Assembly: GCA_030615475.1 (NCBI GenBank)
Contig: JAUWZF010000008.1
Span: 1 to 13,170, forward strand
Reading direction: 5' to 3'
DNA length: 13,170 bases
Source: Dehalococcoidales bacterium
GTDB taxonomy: Bacteria; Chloroflexota; Dehalococcoidia; Dehalococcoidales; RBG-16-60-22
Numbering within the stretch: the first letter of the stretch is position 1; each line of letters starts with the position of its first letter. Under the pieces are notes generated by a model. It was given only the letters and a program-made list of their open reading frames with translations. It was not told the origin of the DNA and ran no database searches. Below are positions 1 through 13,170 of the stretch, piece after piece. The translations under genes and the position numbers were made by a program.

Positions 1-2
1 AA

Positions 3-338
3 AGCAGGGGGATAATCCTGGGCCTGATTTCCAATGTGGAGCAGGATATGACCGAAACCATGACGAGGCTGGGACTGCCCTCGTGGCTGGAAATAATAGT
101 AACCTCCCAGGATGCGAGTGCCAGTAAGCCACGACCGGAAATATTCCAGGAAGCGCTGCGGCGGGCCGGAGCCCAGCCCCCGGAGGCGATATACATCGGC
201 GACCAGTATCAGGTTGACGTCATCGGCGCTAACGGGGCCGGCATGAAGGGTATACTTCTCGACCGCCGTGGTTATTACGAGGACATCACCGACTGCCCCA
301 GGATAAACAGCCTCAGCGAAGTAGTAGAGTACCTGTAA
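3..338 (+). CDS. HAD-superfamily hydrolase, C-terminal part (5' end outside the window)
   Basis: The reading frame is open from the first bases, so the gene starts upstream; the GTG at 36 is internal, not the start. The visible part covers the second half of a haloacid-dehalogenase-like hydrolase. Just after the left edge is a motif II-like stretch (LGLISNVEQDM; hydrophobic strand then S/T-N). Next comes the motif III lysine (SKPRPEIF), then motif IV (IYIGDQYQVDVIGA), which supplies the Mg2+-binding acidic residues. The order and the spacing to the short C-terminal tail (DRRGYYED...) fit subfamily IA phosphatases such as phosphoglycolate-phosphatase-like or 2-haloacid-dehalogenase-like enzymes. 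The nucleophile aspartate of motif I and the cap domain are not visible, so the substrate cannot be assigned. The gene converges with the DUF2851 gene, which ends 29 bp away, and I see no clear terminator between them. Confidence 0.87.
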   Translation, partial: SRGIILGLISNVEQDMTETMTRLGLPSWLEIIVTSQDASASKPRPEIFQEALRRAGAQPPEAIYIGDQYQVDVIGANGAGMKGILLDRRGYYEDITDCPRINSLSEVVEYL

Positions 339-367
339 AAGCCGTCCATGTTATTTTCTTCACCCGG

Positions 368-1732
368 TTAACAGCTATTCCGGCCTATCGGGCAGTGATG
401 GCACTTGCCCTGCGAACATAAAGTCTTATAAATATGGAGCAGCCCCTGCTGCCGCCGGGCCGTGCTGACCAGGTAGCGGCCTATTCCCAGCTGGTTTACC
501 ATATGCCTTTCCAGGGTATTTTCGGCCAGCACCGGGTAGTGACGATAGATTTCTAAGGCTTTTCCGGCCAGCTCCGGGCGCTCATTGGCCCGGCCCCAGG
601 CGGCGGCAAAGGGCAGGAGCACGTTGACGACGATATCAGCGGCCCGGCCCCTGCCCAGGAGGGCCGGAAGGCCCCTCTCACCCGGCAGGCCGAAGTCCAG
701 ATACCTGCCCCAGTAACCATCGGCCGTTACCAGTAAGGCCCTCTCCATTTCGCGGTAGCCTGCCTCGATGGCTGCCTCGCCGAGCCTGTCAATCAGCCCT
801 GCCAGTACCCCCTCCCCCCTGTAGCGGAGCAGGAGATAGCCCATCGCCGCGATGCGGCGGGTGGGCAAGTTGCCCGGCCTGACCTTGAAAAAGTGCCAGT
901 CATCTTCGGACATTGCTGCCGTCTCGCGGCAGGTAACCCATATCTTTTCCAGCCTGGCGACCCAATCTTCGGCCAGGTTTACCGCATGGTACGGCCCGGC
1001 GCGCTGCGACGGCAGCAGCCCCGCCATACCCACCAGCCAGGCCTGATACCGCGCCAGGCATTCGTCATCAGGGGTTTCCTCCAAAGCGGCCGCTTCCAGC
1101 CTGTGAAGCGGCAGCCGGCCGGCCAGCTCCACCATCTGGTGCTTGTTCTTGCTATAGCCCAGAGCCCCCATTATTCCCTGATACAGGGACTGGCTCGCTT
1201 CCGTCCGGGCCAGTTCCGTCTGGAAGTCGGCAATCCTGGATAGAAACCGCTGTTCTCCGGCCGTGTCCAGAATCCCGCCCATAAAGCTCGTATCCCATCG
1301 GCGAATAGCATTGCGGCAGGGCATCGGGTAGATTGCGGAGGGATAAACAGTGTCAACAGACCCGCCGGCGCTGTCCCCGACGAATCTATGCAGCGCCAGA
1401 GTCGGCACCTTCTTTCCATTCTGGAGAATTACGGCCCTGGCTACATCATGCCAGAACACAACATGCAGAATCACCCGGTTATAGACAGGGTCCTGGTGGT
1501 GCCGGTGCGCCCACCAGCTGCTGGACTTAACGTGAATTTCAACATCCCCCCTCACCAGTCCCCGGCTGGTGGCGATAACGGCATCACGATAATCGGCGCC
1601 ACGGTCACCATTGAGCCTGCCCGGATAGACTATCCTGACCGGCTCGTCATCTTCCGTCACCAGGTCGGTCCTGCCCGGCAGGCGGTCCCGCCAGATTTTG
1701 ACGACTTGACTCTCGGGAAAAGTGCCTGGCAT
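368..1732 (-). CDS. DUF2851 family protein with C-terminal cysteine cluster
   Basis: A 454-residue protein of unknown biochemical function, recognised as DUF2851. The N-terminal region has PGRLN-x3-GADYRDAV (about residues 38-52), GDVEIHVKSSSW (62-73), a histidine-rich AHRHHQD (75-81), and YNRVILHVV (84-92). The C-terminus carries four cysteines at about 439, 444, 447 and 454 (C-x4-C-x2-CP-x6-C), a spacing like the iron-sulfur loop of EndoIII/MutY glycosylases or Cas4/AddB nucleases. I chose ATG 1732 over the in-frame GTG 1738 because GAAGGGG lies 5 bases before the ATG, while for the GTG it would overlap the start. The gene follows the acyl-CoA synthetase gene after a 41-bp gap with no visible promoter, so the two are probably cotranscribed. 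The cysteine motif suggests a metal or Fe-S site; a nucleic-acid role is only an inference. Confidence 0.85.
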   Translation of the reverse strand: MPGTFPESQVVKIWRDRLPGRTDLVTEDDEPVRIVYPGRLNGDRGADYRDAVIATSRGLVRGDVEIHVKSSSWWAHRHHQDPVYNRVILHVVFWHDVARAVILQNGKKVPTLALHRFVGDSAGGSVDTVYPSAIYPMPCRNAIRRWDTSFMGGILDTAGEQRFLSRIADFQTELARTEASQSLYQGIMGALGYSKNKHQMVELAGRLPLHRLEAAALEETPDDECLARYQAWLVGMAGLLPSQRAGPYHAVNLAEDWVARLEKIWVTCRETAAMSEDDWHFFKVRPGNLPTRRIAAMGYLLLRYRGEGVLAGLIDRLGEAAIEAGYREMERALLVTADGYWGRYLDFGLPGERGLPALLGRGRAADIVVNVLLPFAAAWGRANERPELAGKALEIYRHYPVLAENTLERHMVNQLGIGRYLVSTARRQQGLLHIYKTLCSQGKCHHCPIGRNSC

Positions 1733-1773
1733 AAACACCCCTTCGCTCGCCAGTTTCAGTCTTTATCCTGGGG

Positions 1774-3204
1774 CTAATCGGCATGAAGAAGGTATTGCTG
1801 GTAGCGGCATAGCGCCGCCAGTGACACTATGGCGCTTTCGTCGCTGGTATAGCTGGGGATACCCATCTCCTGAAAGCCCTGGCACATCCGCAGGTATATC
1901 TTCCTGTCCCCCAGCGGGCTGACGGCCATGATGGGCTTGTGCGGAAAGTCCTTCTTGATATCGGTAAACAGGGTCGGCACGTCTTTACCGGGCACCCAGT
2001 CAACGGCGGCCATAATCACCACCACCGCGTCCACGCCGCCGTCCTCCAGGACGGCCCTGATTACCGTGGTATAGGTCGCCTCGAAGCCGCTGGCTTCGAC
2101 GGCCGTCCAGACGTCTACCGGACTTCTTACCCGCCACCAGTCGGGATAGACGGTCTTTATTTTAGCCCTGGTGGCCGGCGTCAGTTCGGCAATCCTCAGT
2201 CCGCTCCGGACACAGGCGTCGACGGCGGTAACGCAACCGGACCCGGCCAGATTGATAATAGCCACCCGGTTCCCCCGCGGCAGCGGCGCGTAAACGAAAG
2301 CCCTGGCGACATCCCAGAGTTGCTCGAAACTACCCACCCTGATGATTCCCGACTGCCGGAAAGCGGCGTCATAGACCCGGTCCTCTCCGGCTATGGAGCC
2401 GGTATGGGTGCCCGAGGCTCTGGCCCCGCCCTCGGTAACGGCTGACTTCAGGACGATTATCGGCTTCTCTCTGACGATGCGGCGGCTCAACCCGAGGAAA
2501 CGCTGACCGTCCTTGATACTTTCCAGGTACATGGCGATAATTTTCGTCCGGGGGTCTTCGCCGAAATATTCCAGCATGTCGCTTTCATCGACATCGCACT
2601 TATTCCCCAGGCAGGCTATCTTGCTGATGCCGATTTCACTGTTTACCAGCGGCAGATAGACACCGGTAAACAGGCCGGTCTGGCCGATAAACCCCACCGT
2701 CCCCTGTCTGATATCACCCTTCGGCAGGAAGAGCCTGTTCAGCCGGCCCAGGCTGGTATCGAAATGACCGTCCGAGTTAATGGTGCCGACGCTGTTCGGC
2801 CCCATAACTCTTATTCCGGCCCGTTCAGCCATCCGGGCTATCCGCTTCTCCAGCCGGGCGCCGGGCTCGTCCATCTCCCCGAAGCCGGCGGATTCGATAA
2901 TGACCGCCCTAACCCCCCTGGCAACACATTCTTCGAGTGACTTCAAGACCAGCGAAGGCGGCAGTACGATAAGCGCCAGTTCCGGCGGTTCGGGGGTATT
3001 TTTCAGTTCGGGATAAGCCGCCAGCCCCAGGATTCTCTTTGCCCGGGGATTTACCGGGTATATCTTCCCGGGATAGCCGAGCCTCAGCAGGTTCTCGATG
3101 ATGTTATAGCCCCCTTTGCCCGGCGTGCGCGAGGCCCCGATAACGGCAACGCTTCCCGGCTCGAAAAACGGCCTCAGACTATCAGTATTACGATGATTGC
3201 TCAT
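1774..3204 (-). CDS. acyl-CoA synthetase (NDP-forming), alpha-type subunit
   Basis: A 476-residue protein with the three-domain layout of the alpha subunit of ADP-forming acetyl/acyl-CoA synthetases, which interconvert acyl-CoA + ADP + Pi with acid + CoA + ATP. Residues 10-140 are a CoA-binding Rossmann domain (VIGASRTPGKGG near 21-32, VNPRAKRILG at 51-60, MGPNSVG at 134-140). Residues 165-300 are the succinyl-CoA-ligase-like flavodoxin domain with NKCDVDESDMLEYFGEDPRT (201-220) and the THTGSIAG motif. His268 in that motif is the expected phosphohistidine. Residues 310-470 form the third, ligase-CoA domain (SPVDVW at 361-366). The length matches separate alpha subunits; the ATP-grasp beta part is absent here and from the rest of the window. 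The GPNC cysteine common in relatives is serine here, and GQTGLFTG replaces the usual SQSG. A weak CAGGG ribosome site lies 8 bases before ATG 3204. The substrate is unknown. Confidence 0.87.
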   Translation of the reverse strand: MSNHRNTDSLRPFFEPGSVAVIGASRTPGKGGYNIIENLLRLGYPGKIYPVNPRAKRILGLAAYPELKNTPEPPELALIVLPPSLVLKSLEECVARGVRAVIIESAGFGEMDEPGARLEKRIARMAERAGIRVMGPNSVGTINSDGHFDTSLGRLNRLFLPKGDIRQGTVGFIGQTGLFTGVYLPLVNSEIGISKIACLGNKCDVDESDMLEYFGEDPRTKIIAMYLESIKDGQRFLGLSRRIVREKPIIVLKSAVTEGGARASGTHTGSIAGEDRVYDAAFRQSGIIRVGSFEQLWDVARAFVYAPLPRGNRVAIINLAGSGCVTAVDACVRSGLRIAELTPATRAKIKTVYPDWWRVRSPVDVWTAVEASGFEATYTTVIRAVLEDGGVDAVVVIMAAVDWVPGKDVPTLFTDIKKDFPHKPIMAVSPLGDRKIYLRMCQGFQEMGIPSYTSDESAIVSLAALCRYQQYLLHAD

Positions 3205-3228
3205 AAATATAACCCTGAAGGAACGGCG

Positions 3229-3250
3229 CCGTAACCATAAACGGCTACGG
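3229..3250 (-). promoter_or_regulatory. stem-loop in the leader of the acyl-CoA synthetase mRNA
   Basis: In the predicted 5' leader (minus strand), CCGTAGCC (3250-3243) pairs with GGTTACGG (3236-3229), eight pairs including one G-U, around a 6-nt loop. It ends 12 bases before the CAGGG ribosome site, and the palindrome ACGGCGCCGT (3223-3232) overlaps its 3' arm. There is no following T-run, so it is not an obvious terminator. It could affect translation or mRNA stability, but no role is established. Confidence 0.4.
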
Positions 3251-3306
3251 CTACTTTTTACTCACGAGCGGACACTTCAGCTCATACCCGATACCGTACT
3301 ACAGAC

Positions 3307-3335
3307 ATTTTACACGTTTCCGTGTATTTTGTCAA
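3307..3335 (-). promoter_or_regulatory. sigma70 promoter of the acyl-CoA synthetase gene
   Basis: On the minus strand, -35 TTGACA (3335-3330), a 17-bp spacer, and -10 TAAAAT (3312-3307): an almost perfect sigma70 promoter. Transcription would start near 3300, giving a leader of about 95 nt before ATG 3204. The XRE gene's stop codon TGA (3334-3332) lies inside the -35 box. The operator-like palindrome at 3311-3326 fills the spacer and enters the -10 box, so a bound repressor would exclude RNA polymerase. Confidence 0.85.
3311..3326. promoter_or_regulatory. operator-like palindrome, copy 1 (acyl-CoA synthetase promoter)
   Basis: TACAC-GTTTCC-GTGTA; the inverted arms extend to 6 bp (TACACG/CGTGTA) and are flanked by T-rich sequence. 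It has the same arms and spacing as the palindrome upstream of the XRE gene. Its position inside the promoter spacer fits a repressor site. Assignment to the adjacent XRE protein is inferred from proximity and from the duplicate site. Confidence 0.8.
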
Positions 3336-3574
3336 GGTTTCTTTTTCGGGGGCCCGGCTTCGTATTTAAACCTTGCCTGTTCGGCAACGATAGACAGAAG
3401 TTTAGCCGAGGCACCGCGGGGCCGGTACATTCCCGTTTCCCACTCGCTGATGGTCTGCTGACGTGTGCCCAATCTATCCGATAACTCGCTCTGGGTCAGG
3501 CCCAGGTGCCGGCGTAATGCCTGAATTCTCTGTCTGTCCCACTGTCTCCAGCTCGCTTCCGAACTTTTGCTCAT
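3332..3574 (-). CDS. small XRE-family HTH transcriptional regulator
   Basis: An 80-residue protein that is almost only a Cro/C1-type helix-turn-helix domain (about residues 15-68): IQALRRHLGLTQSELSDRLG for helices 1-2, then TRQQTISEWETGMYRPRG for the recognition helix and following turn. A basic, proline-rich tail (PPKKKP) ends it. It likely binds DNA as a dimer. A palindrome, TACAC-N6-GTGTA, sits inside its own promoter, and an equal palindrome sits inside the promoter of the next gene, the acyl-CoA synthetase. It is therefore probably an autoregulator that also controls that gene. The promoter's -10 box lies 6 bases before ATG 3574 and no Shine-Dalgarno is visible, so the transcript is probably leaderless. 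Its TGA stop is embedded in the -35 box of the downstream promoter. There is no sensor domain, so any signal must act on this small domain or through a partner. Confidence 0.92.
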   Translation of the reverse strand: MSKSSEASWRQWDRQRIQALRRHLGLTQSELSDRLGTRQQTISEWETGMYRPRGASAKLLSIVAEQARFKYEAGPPKKKP

Positions 3575-3580
3575 ACCCAG

Positions 3581-3609
3581 ATTTTACACGATGCAGTGTA
3601 AATCGTCAA
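3581..3609 (-). promoter_or_regulatory. sigma70 promoter of the XRE regulator gene
   Basis: On the minus strand, -35 TTGACG (3609-3604), a 17-bp spacer, and -10 TAAAAT (3586-3581). The predicted start falls at or next to the A of ATG 3574, predicting a leaderless mRNA. Box sequences, spacer length and operator placement copy those of the acyl-CoA synthetase promoter 274 bp downstream. Confidence 0.85.
3583..3602. promoter_or_regulatory. operator-like palindrome, copy 2 (XRE promoter)
   Basis: Seven-base arms TTTACAC (3583-3589) and GTGTAAA (3596-3602) around GATGCA; the core TACAC-N6-GTGTA is identical in layout to copy 1. It spans the promoter spacer and most of the -10 box, so binding would be expected to shut the promoter off. 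Autoregulation by the XRE protein is the simplest reading. Confidence 0.82.
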
Positions 3610-4001
3610 AGTTATCTCAATTTGTTTCTGTTTTCATTTGGTTGACGGGCTTACCTCACGCCCCCCCGCCAATGACGGGGGGGGATTTTTATCTACCTCA
3701 CCCCCTGTATCCCCCTCTCCTGACGAGGTGTCACAGGAGAGGGGGAAGAAAAAGAAAGAGGGGTTTCACCCCTCTTAAACGCCCCGCTTGCGAGGGCGGG
3801 AGAATGTTCCACGGGATAAGCCACAGATGCCGCAGGGCGGCCCGGGTGGGAATAGATATCAGCGAAAGGGGTGAGGTAAAGACGCGGGAAGACGTTATTA
3901 AAACGTGCTGTATCTAGCTTGTTTCCCAGAGATTTATGGCGTTTTTGCAAGCATTATGAATGTCAGCTGCTGCCAATATCTGTAAATGACTCTATATCAA
4001 G
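3610..4001. other. gene-free region between the XRE and groES promoters
   Basis: I see no convincing gene here. The open frames that cross it run through palindromic GC-rich repeats and lack a family signature or a good ribosome site. The left half (3655-3800) is a cluster of hairpins, described separately. The right half (3801-4001) is ordinary sequence with only small inverted repeats, such as ACGTT-N5-AACGT at 3892-3906, and no second clear promoter. The groES promoter begins at 4002. Confidence 0.7.
3655..3800. repeat. cluster of GC-rich palindromes (REP/MITE-like)
   Basis: Three perfect hairpins follow one another. CCCCCCCG (3661-3668) pairs with CGGGGGGG (3676-3683) and is followed by G, A and TTTTT. 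CCCCCTCTCCTG (3711-3722) pairs with CAGGAGAGGGGG (3734-3745), 12 bp around an 11-nt loop. AAGAGGGGT (3756-3764) pairs with ACCCCTCTT (3768-3776) around TTC. A weaker GCCC/GGGC stem follows (3781-3797). The first hairpin looks like a rho-independent terminator on the + strand, but no + gene precedes it. The layout fits a dispersed intergenic palindromic repeat; copy number elsewhere cannot be judged from this window. Confidence 0.65.
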
Positions 4002-4030
4002 TTGCGCTGAATCCCAATCTGCGGTATCAT
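4002..4030 (+). promoter_or_regulatory. groES-groEL promoter
   Basis: -35 TTGCGC (4002-4007), 17-bp spacer, -10 TATCAT (4025-4030). The predicted start near 4037 coincides with the left arm of CIRCE, the usual arrangement for HrcA repression. I see no sigma32-type boxes. Confidence 0.75.
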
Positions 4031-4037
4031 GTAGATG

Positions 4038-4064
4038 TTAGCACTCTCGCCCTGAGAGTGCTAA
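4038..4064. promoter_or_regulatory. CIRCE element (HrcA operator)
   Basis: A perfect copy of the CIRCE consensus: TTAGCACTC (4038-4046), a 9-base spacer, GAGTGCTAA (4056-4064). It lies at the predicted transcription start of groES-groEL, about 48 bases before the groES start codon. In bacteria with this element the HrcA repressor, whose folding depends on GroEL, releases it under heat stress. An hrcA gene is not in this window. Confidence 0.98.
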
Positions 4065-4111
4065 TCAAATGTAACGGGATATGGGCTGTTAAAAGAGAAA
4101 GGAGGAATGGT

Positions 4112-4408
4112 ATGGCAGCTAAATTGCAGCCGCTGGCTGACCGTGTTCTGGTTAAACCCATCGAAAAGGAAGAGAAGACGAAGTCCGGGATATATATACC
4201 GGATACAGCCAAAGAGAAACCCCAGGAGGGAAAGGTCCTGGCCGTTGGACCGGGTAAAATGTCCGAGGAAGGCAAGCTGATTCCGATGAACCTCAAAGTC
4301 GGCGATACGGTGATTTACTCCAAATACGGCGGCACGGAAATCAAGGTTGACGATGAAGAGCTGATTATCCTTCGCGAGAGCGATATTCTGGCGAAGAAGT
4401 CCAAATAA
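4112..4408 (+). CDS. groES: co-chaperonin GroES (Hsp10)
   Basis: A 98-residue GroES, the usual size. It forms the heptameric lid of the GroEL chamber and promotes ATP-dependent folding of cytosolic proteins. Visible signatures are [38 protein letters not shown] split over the N-terminal strand and the mobile loop (about residues 16-34), then [24 protein letters not shown] near the C-terminus. ATG 4112 is the start: GGAGG (4101-4105) lies 6 bases upstream, and the longer frame back to 3986 would cross the promoter and CIRCE. The gene is the first of a two-gene operon, with groEL starting 24 bp after its stop. Confidence 0.98.
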
Positions 4409-6067
<1,659 letters not shown>

Positions 6068-6090
6068 TCCTGCCCCAATCTGATGTTAGA

Positions 6091-6124
6091 AATAGCCGTG
6101 GCCTCCGGGCTGCGGCTATTTTTT
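6091..6124 (+). terminator. rho-independent terminator of groES-groEL
   Basis: AATAGCCG (6091-6098) pairs with CGGCTATT (6113-6120), and the arm runs into a T-tract ending at 6124 (six Ts counting the arm). The 14-nt GC-rich loop can pair further internally. It begins 23 bp after the groEL stop. Confidence 0.9.
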
Positions 6125-6137
6125 ACGCCCGATATAA

Positions 6138-6167
6138 TTGACCGCAGCTATAAAATCCCTCTATACT
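6138..6167 (+). promoter_or_regulatory. promoter of the DUF5714 gene
   Basis: -35 TTGACC (6138-6143), 18-bp spacer, -10 TATACT (6162-6167), directly after the groEL terminator. A small inverted repeat CTCTAT (6159-6164) / ATAGAG (6172-6177) brackets the -10 box and could be a regulatory site, though it is short enough to be chance. Confidence 0.65.
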
Positions 6168-6201
6168 TAAAATAGAGATATAACTCAAAGACGGAACTGA
6201 T

Positions 6202-6903
6202 ATGGAATCTACGGAAAACTGCGGGGTGTGCGGTAAGCCCCTCGTTTACGGAACTGGAGAAGTCTCGCGACAGTGTGTCTTCTGCGGTAAAGAATTCAAC
6301 ACCCTGATATACTGCCCCAGAGGCCATTACGTCTGCGACTCCTGCCATTCACGAACGGCCCTGGGTGTTCTACGGGATGTGCTGGCTTCAACCGCCAGCA
6401 CCGACCCTGCCGAAATCCTGGAAACGGTGATGTCCCATCCGTCGGTGCCGATGCACGGACCGGAGCACCATGTCATGGTACCGGCTATTATCGTAGTAGC
6501 AGCGGAAAATACAGGCTATCCCATACCTGAAGGCGCCGTGGAGAAGGCCCTGGAACGGGGAGTAAAAGTACCCGGCGGCTGGTGCGGCTTTTACGGGGCC
6601 TGCGGCGCGGCGATAGGCGTCGGTATCGCTGTAAGCGTACTCACCGGGGCGACACCGCTCACGGGAAAGACGCGGGGGCTGGCTAATGAAGCGACGACTT
6701 TCGCCCTGAATTATATGTTAGACGGGGGGCCGCGCTGCTGTAAAAGGGCCAGCCGCAAGGCGCTGGAGGCCGCCGTCGAGTTCCTGGAGACGAGGATGGG
6801 CATTACCCTGAGCCAGCCTCAGGTAATTAAATGCCAGTATGTCGGACGCAACCGCGAATGTATACGCCACGATTGCGCCTATTACGATAATAGTCAGTCT
6901 TAG
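6202..6903 (+). CDS. DUF5714 domain protein, cysteine-rich
   Basis: A 233-residue protein that I assign to DUF5714; the biochemical function is unknown. The N-terminus has two CxxC pairs (C7/C10 and C25/C28), like a rubredoxin or zinc knuckle. It is followed by YCPRGHYVCDSCH (37-49), the family's CP-x-GHYVCD-x-CH signature. Then come MHGPEHHVMVPA (84-95), GGWCGFYGACGAAIGVG (125-141) and GPRCCKRA (176-183), and three late cysteines at 211, 220 and 225. Fourteen cysteines in 233 residues suggest metal or Fe-S binding or redox chemistry. No signal peptide is visible, so it is probably cytosolic. The ribosome site is weak (GGAA, 7 bases before ATG 6202). It has its own promoter and its stop interlocks with that of the convergent M16 gene. 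The neighbours give no functional clue. Confidence 0.8.
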   Translation: MESTENCGVCGKPLVYGTGEVSRQCVFCGKEFNTLIYCPRGHYVCDSCHSRTALGVLRDVLASTASTDPAEILETVMSHPSVPMHGPEHHVMVPAIIVVAAENTGYPIPEGAVEKALERGVKVPGGWCGFYGACGAAIGVGIAVSVLTGATPLTGKTRGLANEATTFALNYMLDGGPRCCKRASRKALEAAVEFLETRMGITLSQPQVIKCQYVGRNRECIRHDCAYYDNSQS

Positions 6904-8162
6904 AGCTTCAATAAATCCTCCAGAGGTTCGTCAGGACTGATGGGCCCGACCACCGCCAGGCGCAGCCCTTCACCCACCAGCAACTCTCCGGCCAGCTTCC
7001 GGAGTTCCTCGGCGGTGATGGCATCAATGATGGCGATTACTTCATCGAGGGTGAGGATTTTCCCGGTGAGAAGCTCTTGTCCGCCCATCCAGCCGGACAC
7101 GCTGCGGCTGTCTTCCATGCGCAGCCAGAGACGACCCTTGGATAATTCTTTAGCCTTAGAGAGTTCTGTCTCCGGGATTAATTCCTTAAGTCTGGACAGC
7201 TCTTCAAGGATAGCTCTGACGGCTACCGAAAGGTTTTTATTGTCCACCCCGGCGGAGACCCCGATGGCGCCGGTATCGAGTAAGTGCTCGGCGTAGCTAT
7301 GGATACTGTAGGCCAGACCCAGCTTGTCGCGAATCTCCGTGAACAGGCGGCTGCTCATACCCTCGCCGAGGATAACATTGAGCAGGTCAAGCTTGAAGCG
7401 TTCGGGGTGGGTAATCGACAGGCCCGGCATGGCCAGACACAACTGGGTCTGCTCGGTATCGCGCTTCTCAATGAGCACCCGGCGCCCTATTTTCTCCCGG
7501 TAAGGCGTGTAGTCGAGGCGGGGCTGCCGTTTGGCCCATCCGGCAACTACCTGGCTCACAGCATCGACCACCTCCCGGTGCTCGATGTCACCGGCAATAG
7601 CCAGCACGGCATTAGCGGGTTGATACTCTTTTGCCAAGTAGTCGAGCATCATGTCCCTGGTGATAGCCGCCACCGATTCCCGGCTGCCGGCAATATCGCG
7701 TCCCAGGACATGGTCGGGCCACAGTAACTCATCGATGAGCATGGACACCCGCTGTGACGGGTAGTCCAGAGACATGTTAATCTCTTCAATGATAACCCGG
7801 CGCTCCTTTTCAATCTCCACGGGGTCGAACGTAGAGTTGACGAGGATATCCACCAGCACATCGAGGGCGCTGGCAAAGTGGGGCTGCGCCACCTTGCACC
7901 AGTAGATGGTCAGCTCCTTATCAGTGCCGGCATTGAGCATACCCCCCACCCCCTCGATAACCGTGCAGATTTCCGCTGACGTGGGACGCTTTTTAGTGCC
8001 TTTAAAACAGACATGCTCGATAAAGTGTGAGATACCGGCCTGTTCACCGGTCTCGTACCTGGAGCCGGTGCCGATGAAGAAGCTGATGGACACCGACCGC
8101 GTATGCGGCATGGCGGCGGTAACCAGGCGAAGTCCGTTATCCAGGGTAACTTTTTGATACAA
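6900..8162 (-). CDS. M16 family zinc metallopeptidase (processing-peptidase-like)
   Basis: A 420-residue pitrilysin-family protease with the inverted zinc motif HFIEH at residues 46-50: two zinc histidines and the catalytic Glu49. The distal zinc glutamate lies in the conserved FDPVEIEKERRVIIEEI stretch. The C-terminal half has the second M16 domain with LGEGMSSRLFTEIRDKLGLAYSI. The size matches bacterial mitochondrial-processing-peptidase-like proteins of the YmxG/PqqL type; no signal peptide is visible. I chose TTG 8162 (protein starting MYQKVTLDNG, a classic family N-terminus) over GTG 8213: GGAGGG (8176-8171) sits 8 bases before the TTG, and the predicted transcription start near 8191 lies downstream of the GTG. 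It ends in a 4-bp convergent overlap with the DUF5714 gene. The natural substrate is unknown. Confidence 0.93.
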   Translation of the reverse strand: MYQKVTLDNGLRLVTAAMPHTRSVSISFFIGTGSRYETGEQAGISHFIEHVCFKGTKKRPTSAEICTVIEGVGGMLNAGTDKELTIYWCKVAQPHFASALDVLVDILVNSTFDPVEIEKERRVIIEEINMSLDYPSQRVSMLIDELLWPDHVLGRDIAGSRESVAAITRDMMLDYLAKEYQPANAVLAIAGDIEHREVVDAVSQVVAGWAKRQPRLDYTPYREKIGRRVLIEKRDTEQTQLCLAMPGLSITHPERFKLDLLNVILGEGMSSRLFTEIRDKLGLAYSIHSYAEHLLDTGAIGVSAGVDNKNLSVAVRAILEELSRLKELIPETELSKAKELSKGRLWLRMEDSRSVSGWMGGQELLTGKILTLDEVIAIIDAITAEELRKLAGELLVGEGLRLAVVGPISPDEPLEDLLKL

Positions 8163-8197
8163 TAATTCAGCCCTCCAGTGAGTACTGAGAATAAGAT

Positions 8198-8226
8198 ATT
8201 CTAAGGCTTCCACTCTCCGGTGTCAA
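8198..8226 (-). promoter_or_regulatory. promoter of the M16 peptidase gene
   Basis: On the minus strand, -35 TTGACA (8226-8221), 17-bp spacer, -10 TAGAAT (8203-8198). It lies in the 75-bp gap after the MFS gene, so the protease can be expressed independently of the transporter. The predicted start near 8191 leaves a leader of about 29 nt containing GGAGGG before TTG 8162. Confidence 0.8.
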
Positions 8227-8237
8227 TTCGGGACAGC

Positions 8238-9539
8238 CTAGTCCAGTTTCCGCAAGCGTGGCGAAAAGATAAGCATCAACACGGTTACCACGGCCAGAGC
8301 TATGGACAGCCCGCCGATAGACCACTCGATACCCATAGCATCAGCCAGCAGGCCGCCAAAGAAGGTGCCCAGGCTCGCCAGACCGAAACCCAGCATCATA
8401 AAACTCATGACACGTCCCCGGTAACCGGGGTCGACGTAATACTGAATCAGGGTAAAGCCGATGGCTATCTGCCCCGTCTGCCCCAGTCCGATGAAAACCA
8501 CCAGTACCAGGGAAAGGTACCACTCCGATGTAAAAGAGAAGGCTATCAGCGCCAGGCTTAAAATCAGGCCGCTGAGCAGCATCAGAATGCCACGTTTTTT
8601 GTTTTGCATAGAGGCAAGGATGAACGAGACCACGATGGAACCTATTCCGGAGACGGCCATCAGTATCCCCAGGCCGACTTCGCCAACCTTCAATATATCC
8701 TCGGTGAACATCGGCAGGAGCATGTTAAAGGGCATTCCCAGTATGGTACAGCCGAGGGTGAACAAGAGGACAAGCATGATGGTGGTCTCGGCACGGATAT
8801 ACCGGAATCCCTGCACTACTTCCGTCACGGTGCTACTCCCCTGGCGGACCGCCGGACGATTCCCCGGTATTAAAAACAGAAATACTACCGAAAATATATA
8901 CAACGCCGTCATAATATAATACACGGCGCCAAAGTCCCAGGCAGCAATGATGAACCCCGTGGCCGCCGGGGCTACAATCCGGAAAAAATTCATTCCCATA
9001 TTGTTCAGGGATATCGCGTTCATCAGGTCCTCCGGCCTGACGATTTCAGGGACCATGGACGCGCGCGACGGCATCATCAGGCCCATGATAATTCCCTGCA
9101 TTACGCTCGAGACTATCAGAATCCACCAGGAGCCGGGCACATCCGAACTCAGGATGTTCAGGCTCAGAACCAGAGCGACACCCAGGGTAACCACCGCCGA
9201 GGCCGCCTGACTATAAATCAGTATCTTTCTCTTCTCCATCCGGTCGGCCAGGGCACCGCCATAGAGTGACAGAATAAGCATGGGCATGGCCCCCGCCAGA
9301 GCCATCAGCCCCAGGATAGTCCCCGAACCGGTGATGCGGTAAATAAGCAGGGTACGGGTTACCATCTGCATCTGCATGGGGCCCCAGTGGCCTATCAGGG
9401 AATAGTAATAGAGTCGGTAAATGGGGTTTCTAAAGGAACTGAAAACCCTTCTGCCGTACCCCGCTATACCTCCCTGGCCCGCCACCGGCCTGGCCATCTT
9501 CAGGTCATCGTCACGGTATTCGTCCGGATTTTTACTCAT
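8238..9539 (-). CDS. MFS transporter (MFS_3/EntS-like exporter family)
   Basis: A 433-residue integral membrane protein with about 12 hydrophobic segments after a 35-residue polar cytoplasmic N-terminus (YRLYYYSLIGHWG opens the first helix). The family's loop 2-3 motif is present as GGALADRMEKRK (about 94-105), and a related LADAMG-type turn occurs in the second half. Overall it resembles the MFS_3 group, which includes enterobactin exporter EntS and many drug or metabolite effluxers; the direction is probably outward by proton antiport. The substrate cannot be read from the sequence. ATG 9539 is the first plausible start, but its ribosome site is poor (GGAG is 16 bases away). A second in-frame ATG lies 14 codons later. 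It is transcribed divergently from lysA and followed by the M16 gene. Confidence 0.9.
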   Translation of the reverse strand: MSKNPDEYRDDDLKMARPVAGQGGIAGYGRRVFSSFRNPIYRLYYYSLIGHWGPMQMQMVTRTLLIYRITGSGTILGLMALAGAMPMLILSLYGGALADRMEKRKILIYSQAASAVVTLGVALVLSLNILSSDVPGSWWILIVSSVMQGIIMGLMMPSRASMVPEIVRPEDLMNAISLNNMGMNFFRIVAPAATGFIIAAWDFGAVYYIMTALYIFSVVFLFLIPGNRPAVRQGSSTVTEVVQGFRYIRAETTIMLVLLFTLGCTILGMPFNMLLPMFTEDILKVGEVGLGILMAVSGIGSIVVSFILASMQNKKRGILMLLSGLILSLALIAFSFTSEWYLSLVLVVFIGLGQTGQIAIGFTLIQYYVDPGYRGRVMSFMMLGFGLASLGTFFGGLLADAMGIEWSIGGLSIALAVVTVLMLIFSPRLRKLD

Positions 9540-9628
9540 TTACTAAGCCCAGTATTCTCCGCTTACTCGGTGAAAGAGGGAAAGACTTCTCCTGAAAAAG
9601 TGTTGAACTCTGAGGTGGGTACTCTTAT

Positions 9629-9658
9629 ATTTTACACCGATATCGCCTTTCGGGGCAA
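9629..9658 (-). promoter_or_regulatory. probable promoter of the MFS transporter gene
   Basis: On the minus strand, -35 TTGCCC (9658-9653), 18-bp spacer, -10 TAAAAT (9634-9629). The predicted start near 9622 gives a leader of about 80 nt. The -35 box is imperfect, so confidence is moderate. Confidence 0.55.
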
Positions 9659-9687
9659 GGAGAGACAGGAAACAGAGTGAACTCACA

Positions 9688-9716
9688 TTGACTTCACGAA
9701 CGGGCGCTGCTAACAT
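9688..9716 (+). promoter_or_regulatory. promoter of the lysA-holB-ricT operon
   Basis: -35 TTGACT (9688-9693), 17-bp spacer, -10 TAACAT (9711-9716). The start would be near 9723, leaving only about 11 nt before the lysA ATG. There is therefore no room for a lysine riboswitch or attenuator leader. Confidence 0.72.
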
Positions 9717-9733
9717 TATGATGAGAGGTGAAG

Positions 9734-11050
9734 ATGACAGGCGAACAGGACATTCCGAGACTGGTTCTATTCCCGCAGACAGCTGAAGTCAATCAGAAGG
9801 ACCACCTGGTAATCGGCGGCTGTGACAGCGTAGCGCTCGCCGAGGAGTTCGGCACGCCTCTGTATGTCTTTGACGAGGTTGACCTGCGCAGCCGGTGCGC
9901 CGAATTTAAGGCAGAATTCAAGCAGCGTTACCCCGATACCACCGTATGCTACTCGGCTAAAGCGTTTACCGCCAGGGCCATGCTGCAGCTTGTCAAAGAG
10001 GAGGGGCTCGACCTGGATGTGGTGTCGGGCGGGGAGCTGGGTATCGCCCGCTCGTTGGATTTCCCCATGGAGAGGGTACATTTCCCCGGCAATAACAAGT
10101 CGGCGGAGGAGCTCGAAATGGCCATTCAATACGGCATAGGCCACGTCGTAGTGGACAACCCGCACGAACTTGATATGCTGCGTGAAATCGCCGGCAAGAG
10201 GAAGGTCAATATCCTGCTGCGGCTGTCGCCGGGCATAGATGCGCACACTCACCAGTACAATACCACCGGCACCGTGGACTCCAAGTTCGGTTTTACGCGG
10301 TCGACATGGGACGAGGCGGTTAACACCGCCCTGGCGGCGCCCAACCTTAATGTCAACGGCCTGCATTTCCATATCGGATCCGGCATCTTTGAGATGGAGC
10401 CGTACGAGAAGGCTATTGAAGTTATGCTTGAGTACGCAGCGACGATAAAGCAGCGGCATAACTTTGAAATCAGGGTGCTGAGTATCGGCGGGGGGTTCGG
10501 CGTCCAGTATACCGTGGAAGAAGTACCACCACCCATTGCCACCTGGGCCGAAGTGATAGTAAACAAGATTACCAGCCAGTGCCGTGAGCTGAAGCTATCA
10601 TTGCCGAGACTTATAGTAGAGCCGGGCCGGGCAATAGTAGCCCGGGCCGGGGTGGCATTGTACCGGGTGGGGGTGATTAAGGACATACCGGGCATCCGGG
10701 GCTATGTCTGCGTGGATGGCGGCATGGGCGATAATATCCGCCAGCCGATGTACGGTGCCCGGCAGGAAGCGCTGGTGGCTAACCGGGTTGCGGCCAGGGA
10801 AACCGGTAAGGTCACCATTGCCGGCAAGTATTGCGAGTCGGGCGATATCCTGATTAGAGACATCAGCATGCCCGAGCTTAAAGCGGGTGATATCTTGGCG
10901 GTAGCCGGCAGCGGCGCCTATTGCATCCCGTTGCAGAGCAATTATAATGCCTCGTTCCGTCCGGCTATAGTCTTCGTCAGGGAAGGTAAAGCCCGCCTCA
11001 TCCGGCGCCGGGAGACACTGGAAGACCTGACCCGGCATGATGTCGTCTAA
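9734..11050 (+). CDS. lysA: diaminopimelate decarboxylase
   Basis: A 438-residue PLP enzyme that decarboxylates meso-diaminopimelate to L-lysine, the last step of lysine biosynthesis, in the cytosol. Its fold type III barrel shows CYSAKAF with the PLP lysine at about residue 76, VVSGGELGIA, HFHIGSG (the PLP-phosphate side), SIGGGFGVQY and EPGRAIVA. The second domain carries GKYCESGDI, the catalytic cysteine loop reaching into the partner subunit of the dimer, and AGSGAYCIPLQSNYN. The length is slightly above the usual 410-430 because of an N-terminal extension of about 20 residues. ATG 9734 is preferred over GTG 9728 because GAGG (9725-9728) is 5 bases upstream of the ATG and would overlap the GTG. 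It is the first gene of an operon, with holB 14 bp downstream. Confidence 0.97.
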   Translation: MTGEQDIPRLVLFPQTAEVNQKDHLVIGGCDSVALAEEFGTPLYVFDEVDLRSRCAEFKAEFKQRYPDTTVCYSAKAFTARAMLQLVKEEGLDLDVVSGGELGIARSLDFPMERVHFPGNNKSAEELEMAIQYGIGHVVVDNPHELDMLREIAGKRKVNILLRLSPGIDAHTHQYNTTGTVDSKFGFTRSTWDEAVNTALAAPNLNVNGLHFHIGSGIFEMEPYEKAIEVMLEYAATIKQRHNFEIRVLSIGGGFGVQYTVEEVPPPIATWAEVIVNKITSQCRELKLSLPRLIVEPGRAIVARAGVALYRVGVIKDIPGIRGYVCVDGGMGDNIRQPMYGARQEALVANRVAARETGKVTIAGKYCESGDILIRDISMPELKAGDILAVAGSGAYCIPLQSNYNASFRPAIVFVREGKARLIRRRETLEDLTRHDVV

Positions 11051-11064
11051 CGAGGAGACTCTTA

Positions 11065-12090
11065 ATGTGGCAGGTAATCGGACAGACCCGTGCGGTCTCT
11101 CTGATACAGAATAGTCTTGATAAAGGGGCCCTGGCCCATGCTTACCTGTTCGTCGGGCCGGCCCATGTCGGCAAGATGACCCTGGCTTTAAATCTGGCCC
11201 AGGCGCTCAATTGTGAAGCGGACGAGCGACCGTGCCTCGAGTGCGCCTCCTGTCAGAAGATAGCTGCGGCCAATCATGCGGATGTCCAGGTTATCGGCCT
11301 GACCAGCAACGAGGATGCGGCGGAAGCCAAGCTGATTGGTATCGAGCAGATAGAAGACCTTCAGCACGATGCCAACTTACCCCCCTTCGAGGGGAAGCAC
11401 AAGGTATTTATCATTAACCCTGCAGAACTGCTTTCGCTTCCCGCGGCTAACAGCCTGCTGAAAACACTCGAAGAGCCCGCCGACAAAGTGACTTTTATCT
11501 TGTTGACGGTAAATGACAGGTTGCTGCCAACTACCGTGGTCTCCCGCTGCCAGCGTCTGGAATTACCGCCCCTGTCAATTGCCGAGGAATCATCGGCTTT
11601 GATAGACAGGTGGGATATCGGACCGGAGCGGGCCAGGCTCCTCGCCGGGCTTTCTCACGGCTGCCTGGGATGGGCTATTGCGGCTAATGGAGACGATAGC
11701 CTGCTTCAACAGCGCGACCAGGAACTGAACCGTCTGCTCAATATTATCAAGGCCGACTACGAAGAGCGTTTCGCCTACGTGGCCCAGCTGGCCGCCCGAT
11801 TCAACCAGAACCGGGGCGCGGTTTACGAGATACTGGACCTGTGGCTTGATTACTGGCGCGACCTGATGTTGGTTAAACTGGGCTGTCATGATATGATAAC
11901 TAATATCGACCGTAAGGATGAGCTCGTCGAGATGGCCGGAGGCTATCGACTGGCCCAGATAAAGTCTTTCATCGAGAGCATCGGGTCGGCCGCGGAACAG
12001 CTCAGGCAGAACGTCAATACGCGGCTGGCGCTGGAGGTAATGATGCTCGACATACCCAGAAAGGAAGGAGGTGGCGTGAAATATGGCTGA
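11065..12090 (+). CDS. holB: DNA polymerase III delta' subunit (clamp loader)
   Basis: A 341-residue AAA+ protein of the clamp-loader complex, which opens and loads the beta sliding clamp together with delta and DnaX. It shows IGQTRAVSLIQNSL (residues 5-18), Walker A GPAHVGKMT (31-39), and a four-cysteine zinc site (C50, C57, C60, C63). It also has the conserved LPAANSLLKTLEEP (125-138), and SRC (160-162) with the arginine finger. The Walker B strand reads VFIINPAE (114-121), without the usual DEAE acidic pair, so ATP hydrolysis by this subunit is unlikely, as is typical for delta'. ATG 11065 follows GAGGAGA by 6 bases. Its last 8 bases overlap ricT. The holB-ricT pairing matches the gene order known in Bacillus and other bacteria and supports the assignment over generic DnaX-like ATPases. 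Confidence 0.94.
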   Translation: MWQVIGQTRAVSLIQNSLDKGALAHAYLFVGPAHVGKMTLALNLAQALNCEADERPCLECASCQKIAAANHADVQVIGLTSNEDAAEAKLIGIEQIEDLQHDANLPPFEGKHKVFIINPAELLSLPAANSLLKTLEEPADKVTFILLTVNDRLLPTTVVSRCQRLELPPLSIAEESSALIDRWDIGPERARLLAGLSHGCLGWAIAANGDDSLLQQRDQELNRLLNIIKADYEERFAYVAQLAARFNQNRGAVYEILDLWLDYWRDLMLVKLGCHDMITNIDRKDELVEMAGGYRLAQIKSFIESIGSAAEQLRQNVNTRLALEVMMLDIPRKEGGGVKYG

Positions 12091-12877
12091 TACCGTTGGA
12101 ATACGTTTTAAAAGAGCCGGCAAAGTCTATTACTTCGACGCCGGCGATATCGCGCTGGAACCCGGCGACTACGCCGTCGTGAAGACGAGCCGGGGTATGG
12201 AACTGGGGCACGTGGTTATTGCCCCCGGTCAGGTACTGGCCGGCGAGACAGGAGAAAACCTGAGCCCGGTGGTACGCAAGGCCGAACCGGAGGACATCGT
12301 CAAGTCAGAGGAGCTCGATGCCAGGGCGGAGGAAGCCCTGATTGAGTGCGGCAAGATGATTGGCGAACTACAGCTGCCCATGAAGCTGCTATCCGCCGAA
12401 TACAATCTCGACAGCAGCCGACTGACTTTTTTATTCAGCGCCGAGGAAAGGGTCGACTTTCGGGACCTGGTCCGTCGACTGACCGGACAATTCAAGGTAA
12501 GAGTAGAATTACGCCAGGTGGGCAGTCGGGACGAGGCTAAATTACTGGGAAGCTTCGGCCGGTGCGGTCGTCCCCTGTGCTGCATGAGCTTCCTGACCGA
12601 GTTTACCCCGGTTTCCATCAAGATGGCTAAAGAGCAGAACCTGCCGCTTAACCCGATGAAAATTTCCGGAGCCTGCGGTCGCCTGATGTGCTGCCTGGCC
12701 TACGAAGGGGAGCAGTACCGCCTTATGAAGGAGAAAATGCCCAAGGTGGGGCAGCGGGTATCCACGCGCATGGGCGAGGCTACTGTGGTCGGGAATAATC
12801 CGCTGAAGGAAACGGTGATGGTTGAGATGGATAGCGAAGCTACGGTAGAGCTGCCTCTCGGCGACGTTTCTTACTGA
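12083..12877 (+). CDS. ricT: PSP1-domain protein RicT (YaaT-like)
   Basis: A 264-residue PSP1-family protein. In Bacillus subtilis the relative RicT (YaaT) works in the RicA-RicF-RicT complex, which holds Fe-S clusters and helps RNase Y mature mRNAs; the role here is inferred from that. The N-terminus has GIRFKRAGKVYYFDAG. The PSP1 core has LTFLFSAEERVDFRDLVR (about 114-131) and VELRQVGSRDEAK. The key cysteines are C161, C166 and C167 (GRCGRPLCCMSF), then C198, C203 and C204 (ACGRLMCCLAYE), all as expected for a cluster-binding form. ATG 12083 is chosen because GGAGGTG (12067-12073) lies 9 bases upstream, inside the end of holB; the genes overlap by 8 bp and are probably translationally coupled. 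No ricA or ricF partner is in this window. Confidence 0.94.
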   Translation: MADTVGIRFKRAGKVYYFDAGDIALEPGDYAVVKTSRGMELGHVVIAPGQVLAGETGENLSPVVRKAEPEDIVKSEELDARAEEALIECGKMIGELQLPMKLLSAEYNLDSSRLTFLFSAEERVDFRDLVRRLTGQFKVRVELRQVGSRDEAKLLGSFGRCGRPLCCMSFLTEFTPVSIKMAKEQNLPLNPMKISGACGRLMCCLAYEGEQYRLMKEKMPKVGQRVSTRMGEATVVGNNPLKETVMVEMDSEATVELPLGDVSY

Positions 12878-12902
12878 CTGCCGGGAGTGTTTACCATGTC
12901 CC

Positions 12903-13021
12903 GTCATTCTCAGCCTTCAGCCTGATTCAGCCTGAAGGCTTGACCCGAGAATCCAGCCACCTTTACCCGTCTGGATTCCCGCTGGAGTTTATCCCATACG
13001 CCGATACGGGGCGGGAATGAC
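12903..13021. repeat. 119-bp palindromic intergenic repeat (MITE/REP-like)
   Basis: The outer ends are inverted: GTCATTC (12903-12909) and GAATGAC (13015-13021). Inside are two hairpins. The first is ATTCTC (12906-12911) with GAGAAT (12947-12952), nesting GCCTTCAG (12913-12920) with CTGAAGGC (12932-12939). The second is ATTCCCGC (12975-12982) with GCGGGAAT (13011-13018). Each half is flanked by a CCAG/CTGG step. The GTCATTCCCGC...GAATCCAG style is that of dispersed non-coding repeats in many bacterial genomes. It could also form a transcript-stabilising or ending structure after ricT, but there is no T-run. Confidence 0.75.
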
Positions 13022-13057
13022 ACCAAACCATTGTTAAACACGCCCGGGCACTTATTC

Positions 13058-13086
13058 TTGCTTCCAGAACTCAAGAACTGTAGAAT
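13058..13086 (+). promoter_or_regulatory. promoter of the gene at the right edge
   Basis: -35 TTGCTT (13058-13063), 17-bp spacer, -10 TAGAAT (13081-13086). The start would be near 13093. AGAGGAG (13114-13120) then serves as the ribosome site 10 bases before ATG 13131. Confidence 0.65.
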
Positions 13087-13130
13087 AGTGGTATTAAAAA
13101 TAAAAACTTTCCGAGAGGAGATTGATTTTC

Positions 13131-13170
13131 ATGGCACAGATGGACCTGGCCGGCAATACGTATGAAGTCG
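13131..13170 (+). CDS. N-terminus of an unidentified protein, possibly DsrC/TusE-like (3' end outside the window)
   Basis: Only 13 codons are visible, reading MAQMDLAGNTYEV. A promoter and a good ribosome site (AGAGGAG, 10 bases upstream) make this a real gene start. The opening, a short Met-Ala run followed by a hydrophobic residue, G-x-x-Y-E-V, resembles the first strand of DsrC/TusE/DsvC sulfur-relay proteins. This is too short to assign a family, and other proteins with a GKTYEV-type first hairpin would look the same. No second ATG with a better site is visible. Confidence 0.6.
   Translation, partial: MAQMDLAGNTYEV

Follow-up and report, generated by a model that had tools for sequence, protein, structure and literature searches.

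Paired promoter-operators around a small XRE gene point to a probable LexA-independent repressor of genes for mismatch repair, DNA methylation and DUF2851 in Dehalococcoidia

LexA is an autoregulated repressor of DNA-repair genes, and the C proteins of restriction-modification systems are small XRE-family regulators that act through palindromes on their own genes and on genes for DNA modification. The repressor of phage 434 reads the ACA of a 14-bp operator, ACAA-N6-TTGT, with residues Q28 and Q29 (an account of this operator was not found in the literature searched). In Deinococcus, DdrO is reported to be an XRE-family repressor of DNA-repair genes with palindromic operators, the radiation/desiccation response motif (RDRM) being found before its own gene as well; LexA is not the regulator of this set, and mutS and mutL are among the predicted targets (PMC8533742, PMC1978522), with only low coverage of the mutL promoter by chromatin immunoprecipitation in D. 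radiodurans (PMC8533742). Here we describe a comparable arrangement in a 13,170-bp stretch of DNA from a Dehalococcoidales bacterium (assembly GCA_030615475.1, contig JAUWZF010000008.1, positions 1 to 13,170; hereafter the window), in which a gene for an 80-residue XRE protein (xre) lies between two matching promoter-operators, one ahead of xre itself and one ahead of an operon of an acyl-CoA synthetase gene (acs) and a gene of the family DUF2851. Comparison across genomes makes it very likely that the XRE protein is a LexA-independent, autoregulated repressor that acts on mismatch repair, on DNA methylation and on DUF2851, the synthetase being a passenger in one family. A preliminary description of the window had proposed one XRE protein acting on two equal sites, a proposal that has stood; its list of targets was incomplete, as mutL, mutS and DNA methyltransferase genes, which a single window could not reveal, were missing from it. 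No prior account of this regulon was found in the literature searched, the scope of which left out subscription papers and preprints.

The palindrome TACAC-N6-GTGTA is present in two exact copies in the window, 274 bp apart (Table 1), with no further full copy there and none in 200 dinucleotide shuffles. Each copy is set in the same phase within a promoter that has a TTGACA or TTGACG box, a TAAAAT box and a spacer of 17 bp, and the composite pattern TTGAC-N4-TACAC-N6-GTGTA-AAAT has two mismatch-free matches, both on the minus strand (3307-3335 and 3581-3609), where a mean of 0.01 is expected by chance. When two mismatches were allowed, the window gave four matches in all, the two additional ones included, near the chance mean of 2.27. 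The twin promoter-palindromes are real, a chance origin being excluded by the shuffles, and in all these respects the preliminary description was accurate, down to its remark that the window holds no other full copy. The site on the acs side is a perfect 6+6 palindrome, TACACG-N4-CGTGTA, and that on the xre side is asymmetric, reading TACACT...CGTGTA on the minus strand.

The host genome (78% complete) and 60 relatives were compared, and a close XRE orthologue was called in 35 of these 61 genomes; the E values here are at most 3.1e-28, and the match that follows stands at 1.4e-6. The preliminary description had staked its proposal on conservation of the palindrome around orthologous genes, and the palindrome is conserved there: among 33 xre loci read from 32 genomes, both sites match in at least 10 of 12 positions in 26, spaced by exactly 274 bp in 12 loci and by 268-287 bp in 14. 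One genome, G005, has two xre-acs loci (L111 and L112), each with a site pair. A broader set of 80 named loci was made up of the best 80 of 320 relatives from one scan of GTDB genomes, and these are titled Dehalococcoidia, Dehalococcoidales, Dehalococcoides or Chloroflexi/Chloroflexota with the single exception of a Deltaproteobacteria entry. The site before xre itself reaches at least 10 of 12 in 70 of them, and its position 6 is T in 57 of the 70, G in 10 and C in 3.

Of the 61 genomes, 40 contain the perfect site TACACG-N4-CGTGTA, 83 copies in all, and none contains the reversed pattern. When each copy was assigned by tblastn to the closest reference gene no more than 700 bp away, 34 of the 83 fell before mutL, 21 before DUF2851, 9 before acs, 6 each before xre and before a macro-domain gene, 3 before an N6/N4 methyltransferase gene and 1 before a D12 adenine methyltransferase gene, leaving 3 without assignment. 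Two of these last (G033:C48 and G060:C11) precede proteins matched by the Pfam family N6_N4_Mtase, which brings the methyltransferase sites to six in all, and the third (G018:C129) lies at a contig edge directly behind xre, so that every one of the 83 sites is accounted for by a listed gene behind it or by a contig edge behind xre. With gene directions set by hand from the tblastn assignments, TTGACA with at most one mismatch is found at one fixed distance in 77 of the 83 sites; a -10 sequence that departs from TATAAT at no more than two bases is likewise present in 77 of the 83. The third perfect site of the host lies on contig C226 (30-45), 13 bp ahead of a complete mutL, the product of which contains a MutL_C domain (Pfam) and the sequence DQHAAHERI, which we take to be the endonuclease motif. 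No host target beyond the three perfect sites emerged from the 78% complete genome when one mismatch to TACAC-N6-GTGTA was allowed (10 places versus 9 for the reversed pattern). The mutL ATG stands 13 bases behind its palindrome in the host (L070:30-60), and in the window the -10 box of xre ends 6 bases ahead of the ATG (3572-3586); such spacing is conserved in relatives, and the xre and mutL mRNAs may both be leaderless.

Sites and the XRE gene occur together. Perfect sites are present in 33 of the 35 genomes with the XRE gene versus 7 of the 26 without it. A mutL start could be read in 47 of the 61 genomes, and a site that matches in 11 or more of the 12 positions precedes it in 27 of 28 genomes with XRE (the 28th has 10 of 12) versus 7 of 19 without; DUF2851 itself is found in 31 of 35 versus 4 of 26. 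The class-wide sample consisted of 294 genomes, namely the host plus genomes of 85% completeness or more, with XRE called by profile A1 at E 1e-12, and here a perfect site is present in 134 of 180 genomes with XRE versus 5 of 114 without, the reversed-pattern control giving 26 of 180 and 9 of 114. Fisher p values for the mutL site, the perfect sites, DUF2851 and the class-wide comparison are 1e-5, 3e-8, 7e-9 and 5e-36, and all are too small, as relatedness is ignored in them. All 11 sampled genomes of family f9 (e.g. G038), each 99-100% complete and ten of them single contigs, have neither the XRE gene nor a site.

Forty sites from the class-wide sample were examined, 31 of them away from listed xre matches and 9 beside one. 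By nearest gene, 16 belong to mutS, 10 to xre followed by DUF2851, 7 to DNA methyltransferase classes, 4 to mutL and 2 to DUF2851, and the remaining one, located between uvrD and mutL with intervening frames, is unassigned. The mutS sites (L320-L332, L348, L349 and L319) come without exception from a distant family, f51, in which genus g73 contributes 14; in this family the operator stands before mutS and not mutL, and the regulon seems to keep mismatch repair and to swap the gene. Pfam scans of the class-wide targets recovered MutS (one protein scanned), C5 methylase (two), N6_N4_Mtase (four), D12 (one) and DUF488 (one), with Vsr behind one of the two C5 methylases that have an operator. Among the 60 relatives and the host, on the other hand, mutS was not supported as a co-target: in 30 mutS loci, drawn from 34 mutS matches in 33 genomes, the best site reaches 10 of 12 once and 7 to 9 in the others. 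Several lineages (L231, L346, L100, L127 and L186) carry genes for DUF72, DUF488 or a macro domain as insertions between xre and DUF2851, and in L100 and L127 there is one operator for the macro-domain gene and a separate one for DUF2851. Operator-bearing DNA methyltransferase genes are located directly behind a ribonucleotide reductase gene in L094, where this is confirmed by Pfam, and in L104, L109, L338 and L342, where the gene resembles one by sequence.

The XRE protein belongs to the XRE/HTH_3 regulators (44.2 bits versus a Pfam cut-off of 23), and scans of its 80 residues against Pfam and NCBIfam profiles returned only helix-turn-helix (HTH) families and no sensor domain. In a HMMER alignment its segment GTRQQTISEWETG lies opposite GTTQQSIEQLENG of the 434 repressor, so that Q39-Q40 meet Q28-Q29, and the RQQ of the recognition helix is invariant in both orthologue alignments (16 and 8 sequences). 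The core ACAC-N6-GTGT has the length and the outer bases of the 14-bp 434 operator. The likeness to the 434 repressor consists of the HTH_3 fold family, the aligned recognition helix and this 14-bp core with outer ACA/TGT; it differs in being encoded by a chromosomal gene with no phage genes among the neighbours read, in having no C-terminal oligomerization domain and in having targets in DNA upkeep.

On this comparison the protein would be a dimeric repressor of the 434 type that binds T-ACAC-N6-GTGT-A palindromes filling the spacer between the -35 and -10 boxes and overlapping the -10 box. Binding of both window sites by the XRE protein, as first proposed, is very probable given the conservation of the sites and their co-occurrence with the gene. 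With a palindrome placed between the two boxes and reaching into the -10 box, a block of RNA polymerase by the bound protein would be the simplest mechanism. The protein would repress its own promoter through the conserved asymmetric site, which is probably the weaker one, and would repress DUF2851, in the host through the acs-DUF2851 operon, together with the unlinked mutL; in other lineages it would also act on mutS, on DNA methyltransferase genes (one of them followed by vsr) and on the macro-domain gene.

The preliminary description had placed the stress on the acyl-CoA synthetase, and the window site does head the acs-DUF2851 operon, with 9 of the 83 perfect sites in the 61 genomes likewise preceding acs. 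From this one might picture a local circuit that ties the level of the regulator to the synthetase and to carbon metabolism, the other sites being secondary. Such a circuit is highly improbable: acs was recognized behind xre in 8 of the 80 named loci versus 60 for DUF2851, and 34 of the 83 perfect sites precede mutL. Behind xre in the named loci, DUF2851 stands alone in 39, after DUF72 in 9, after acs in 6 and after a macro-domain gene in 6; rarer orders are acs alone (2), DUF72 alone (2), the macro-domain gene alone (1) and the macro-domain gene then DUF72 (1). Within the 61-genome set, acs cases are confined to f1, the family of the window; of the 9 that have a site, 7 have DUF2851 next, and in the other two the contig breaks off within acs. 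The synthetase is a probable passenger in the operon because of these counts and of its confinement to one family, and the emphasis on it was not borne out; the regulator probably governs DNA upkeep and not acyl-CoA metabolism.

The position of the sites also bears on the direction of control. Some -10 boxes are imperfect (TAAAAT, TAAGAT) and would leave room for help from a bound activator, but activation is quite unlikely, since the palindrome occupies a canonical 17-bp spacer and extends into the -10 box, in most promoters beside a near-perfect TTGACA, where a bound protein would obstruct polymerase. Another regulator might instead bind the sites, with xre merely a co-regulated neighbour, given that XRE proteins are numerous and that perfect sites occur in seven relatives and in five genomes of the class that lack this one. 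We consider this very improbable, as the sites flank xre itself and strongly co-occur with it, as the invariant recognition helix is like that of the 434 repressor, and as most of the exceptions among the relatives are incomplete genomes. Several observations nevertheless weigh against repression by the XRE protein as set out above. The co-occurrence tests ignore relatedness and their genome sets overlap; six of the seven relatives with sites and no XRE gene are 55-89% complete, but the seventh, G033, is 91% complete; and 46 of the 180 genomes of the class with XRE have no perfect site, the class-wide scan being one for perfect sites only. In 7 of the 33 xre loci one site of the pair is missing or weak (L009, L015, L017, L018, L022, L023 and L030), and 14 of the 80 named loci have no recognized DUF2851, acs, macro-domain or DUF72 gene behind xre, although 10 of these have at least 1 kb of room. 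L194 is the only such roomy locus with a strong site behind xre, and the protein next to xre there is, as we read its motifs, presumably a DNA methyltransferase. Finally, with no mutS site in the relatives, each lineage seen has only one half of mismatch repair covered.

Compared with the systems described at the outset, the regulator is like DdrO in being, as predicted here, an XRE-type repressor with a palindrome before its own gene, in its independence of LexA and in having mutS and mutL, here as predictions, among its targets. It differs in that only an HTH was matched in its 80 residues, the C-terminal dimerization domain with the IrrE cleavage site described for DdrO not being found (PMC8533742), and in that TACACG-N4-CGTGTA, in a comparison by eye with the operators given there, is not the 17-bp RDRM palindrome (PMC8533742, PMC1978522). 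An IrrE-type M78 peptidase is present in only 17 of the 61 genomes and 11 of the 35 with XRE, and was not found in the 78% complete host, for which reason induction of the IrrE/DdrO type was rejected as a general mechanism; the targets are also few and centred on mismatch repair, methylation and DUF2851. The regulator is one that would work like DdrO, yet it is not classed as a DdrO, three features of which were not found. LexA, on the other hand, is encoded by a separate gene in 51 of the 61 genomes, including the host, and replacement of the SOS system by the XRE regulator was rejected on that ground; the XRE protein itself has no match to a LexA family in Pfam or NCBIfam, the LexA DNA-binding domain included. 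From C proteins, by their general description, it is set apart by a conserved chromosomal locus beside DUF2851 and by unlinked mutL or mutS targets.

The features of the locus are compiled in Table 1. The acs product scores 418.1 bits against the NCBIfam equivalog for the alpha subunit of NDP-forming acetate--CoA ligase, below the cut-off of 567.15, and it carries the Pfam domains that mark the wider family. The DUF2851 protein is a member of its family (204.9 bits, E 2.4e-60, cut-off 25), with a best named relative that is 83% identical and labelled Dehalococcoidales. On the other side xre is flanked by groES and groEL in opposite orientation, and a groES or groEL match is found on that flank in 49 of the 80 named loci. 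A CIRCE-type inverted repeat, TTAGCACTC-N9-GAGTGCTAA, lies upstream of groES as an exact match (4038-4064) and is presumably an HrcA operator. The gap between xre and groES contains a C run, a short loop, a G run and a T-rich stretch (3660-3695), by eye a terminator-like hairpin on the plus strand.

Table 1. Positions of the promoter-operator elements and genes in the window.
Feature	Position	Strand	Basis
xre operator (own site), asymmetric TACACT-N4-CGTGTA	3585..3600	-	pattern match, conserved in relatives
xre promoter, -35 box TTGACG	3604..3609	-	sequence match
xre promoter, -10 box TAAAAT, ending 6 bases before ATG	3581..3586	-	sequence match
acs-DUF2851 operon operator, perfect TACACG-N4-CGTGTA	3311..3326	-	pattern match, conserved in relatives
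acs-DUF2851 promoter, -35 box TTGACA	3330..3335	-	sequence match
acs-DUF2851 promoter, -10 box TAAAAT	3307..3312	-	sequence match
xre, 80-residue XRE/HTH_3 regulator, 434-repressor-like recognition helix	3332..3574	-	HTH_3 profile, 434 alignment
acs, NDP-forming acyl-CoA synthetase, alpha-type protein	1774..3204	-	Pfam CoA_binding_2 and Succ_CoA_lig
DUF2851 gene, 35 bp behind acs; conserved target	368..1738	-	PF11013

The DUF2851 protein appears in the literature searched as a table entry only. Its predicted structure suggests a fusion of a PD-(D/E)XK nuclease fold with an HhH-GPD-like domain, and we regard it as a candidate DNA-repair enzyme. In the N-terminal part, compared with the D...(D/E)xK catalytic pattern, D49 and E67 are both invariant in a set of 46 and in a set of 55 sequences, and position 69 is His, not Lys. 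For the full model, NucS ranks first among the N-terminal matches; it is not among the matches listed for the N-terminal model alone; Foldseek on its own gave no significant match for the DUF2851 model, and sequence comparison with Pfam (46 members), PDB sequences (best E 0.067) and hhalign did not place the protein in a known nuclease or glycosylase family. A tentative further reading, put forward as a single whole, is that the XRE repressor sets the dose of a dedicated set of mismatch-correction factors, namely MutL or MutS, DNA methyltransferases (with Vsr) and DUF2851 as a new repair enzyme, in which DUF2851 might combine a NucS/SfsA-like PD-(D/E)XK domain with an HhH-GPD-like domain bearing four invariant cysteines and might act with MutL on mismatched or modified bases.

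With a compact, LexA-independent mismatch-repair regulon that has an unmistakable operator, control of the mutation rate would become open to experiment in a class that metagenomes have mostly made known; DUF2851, an uncharacterized family, gains a testable role in DNA repair. If the tentative reading is true, mutation rate or methylation in this large and mostly uncultured class would shift once the repressor is induced or lost.

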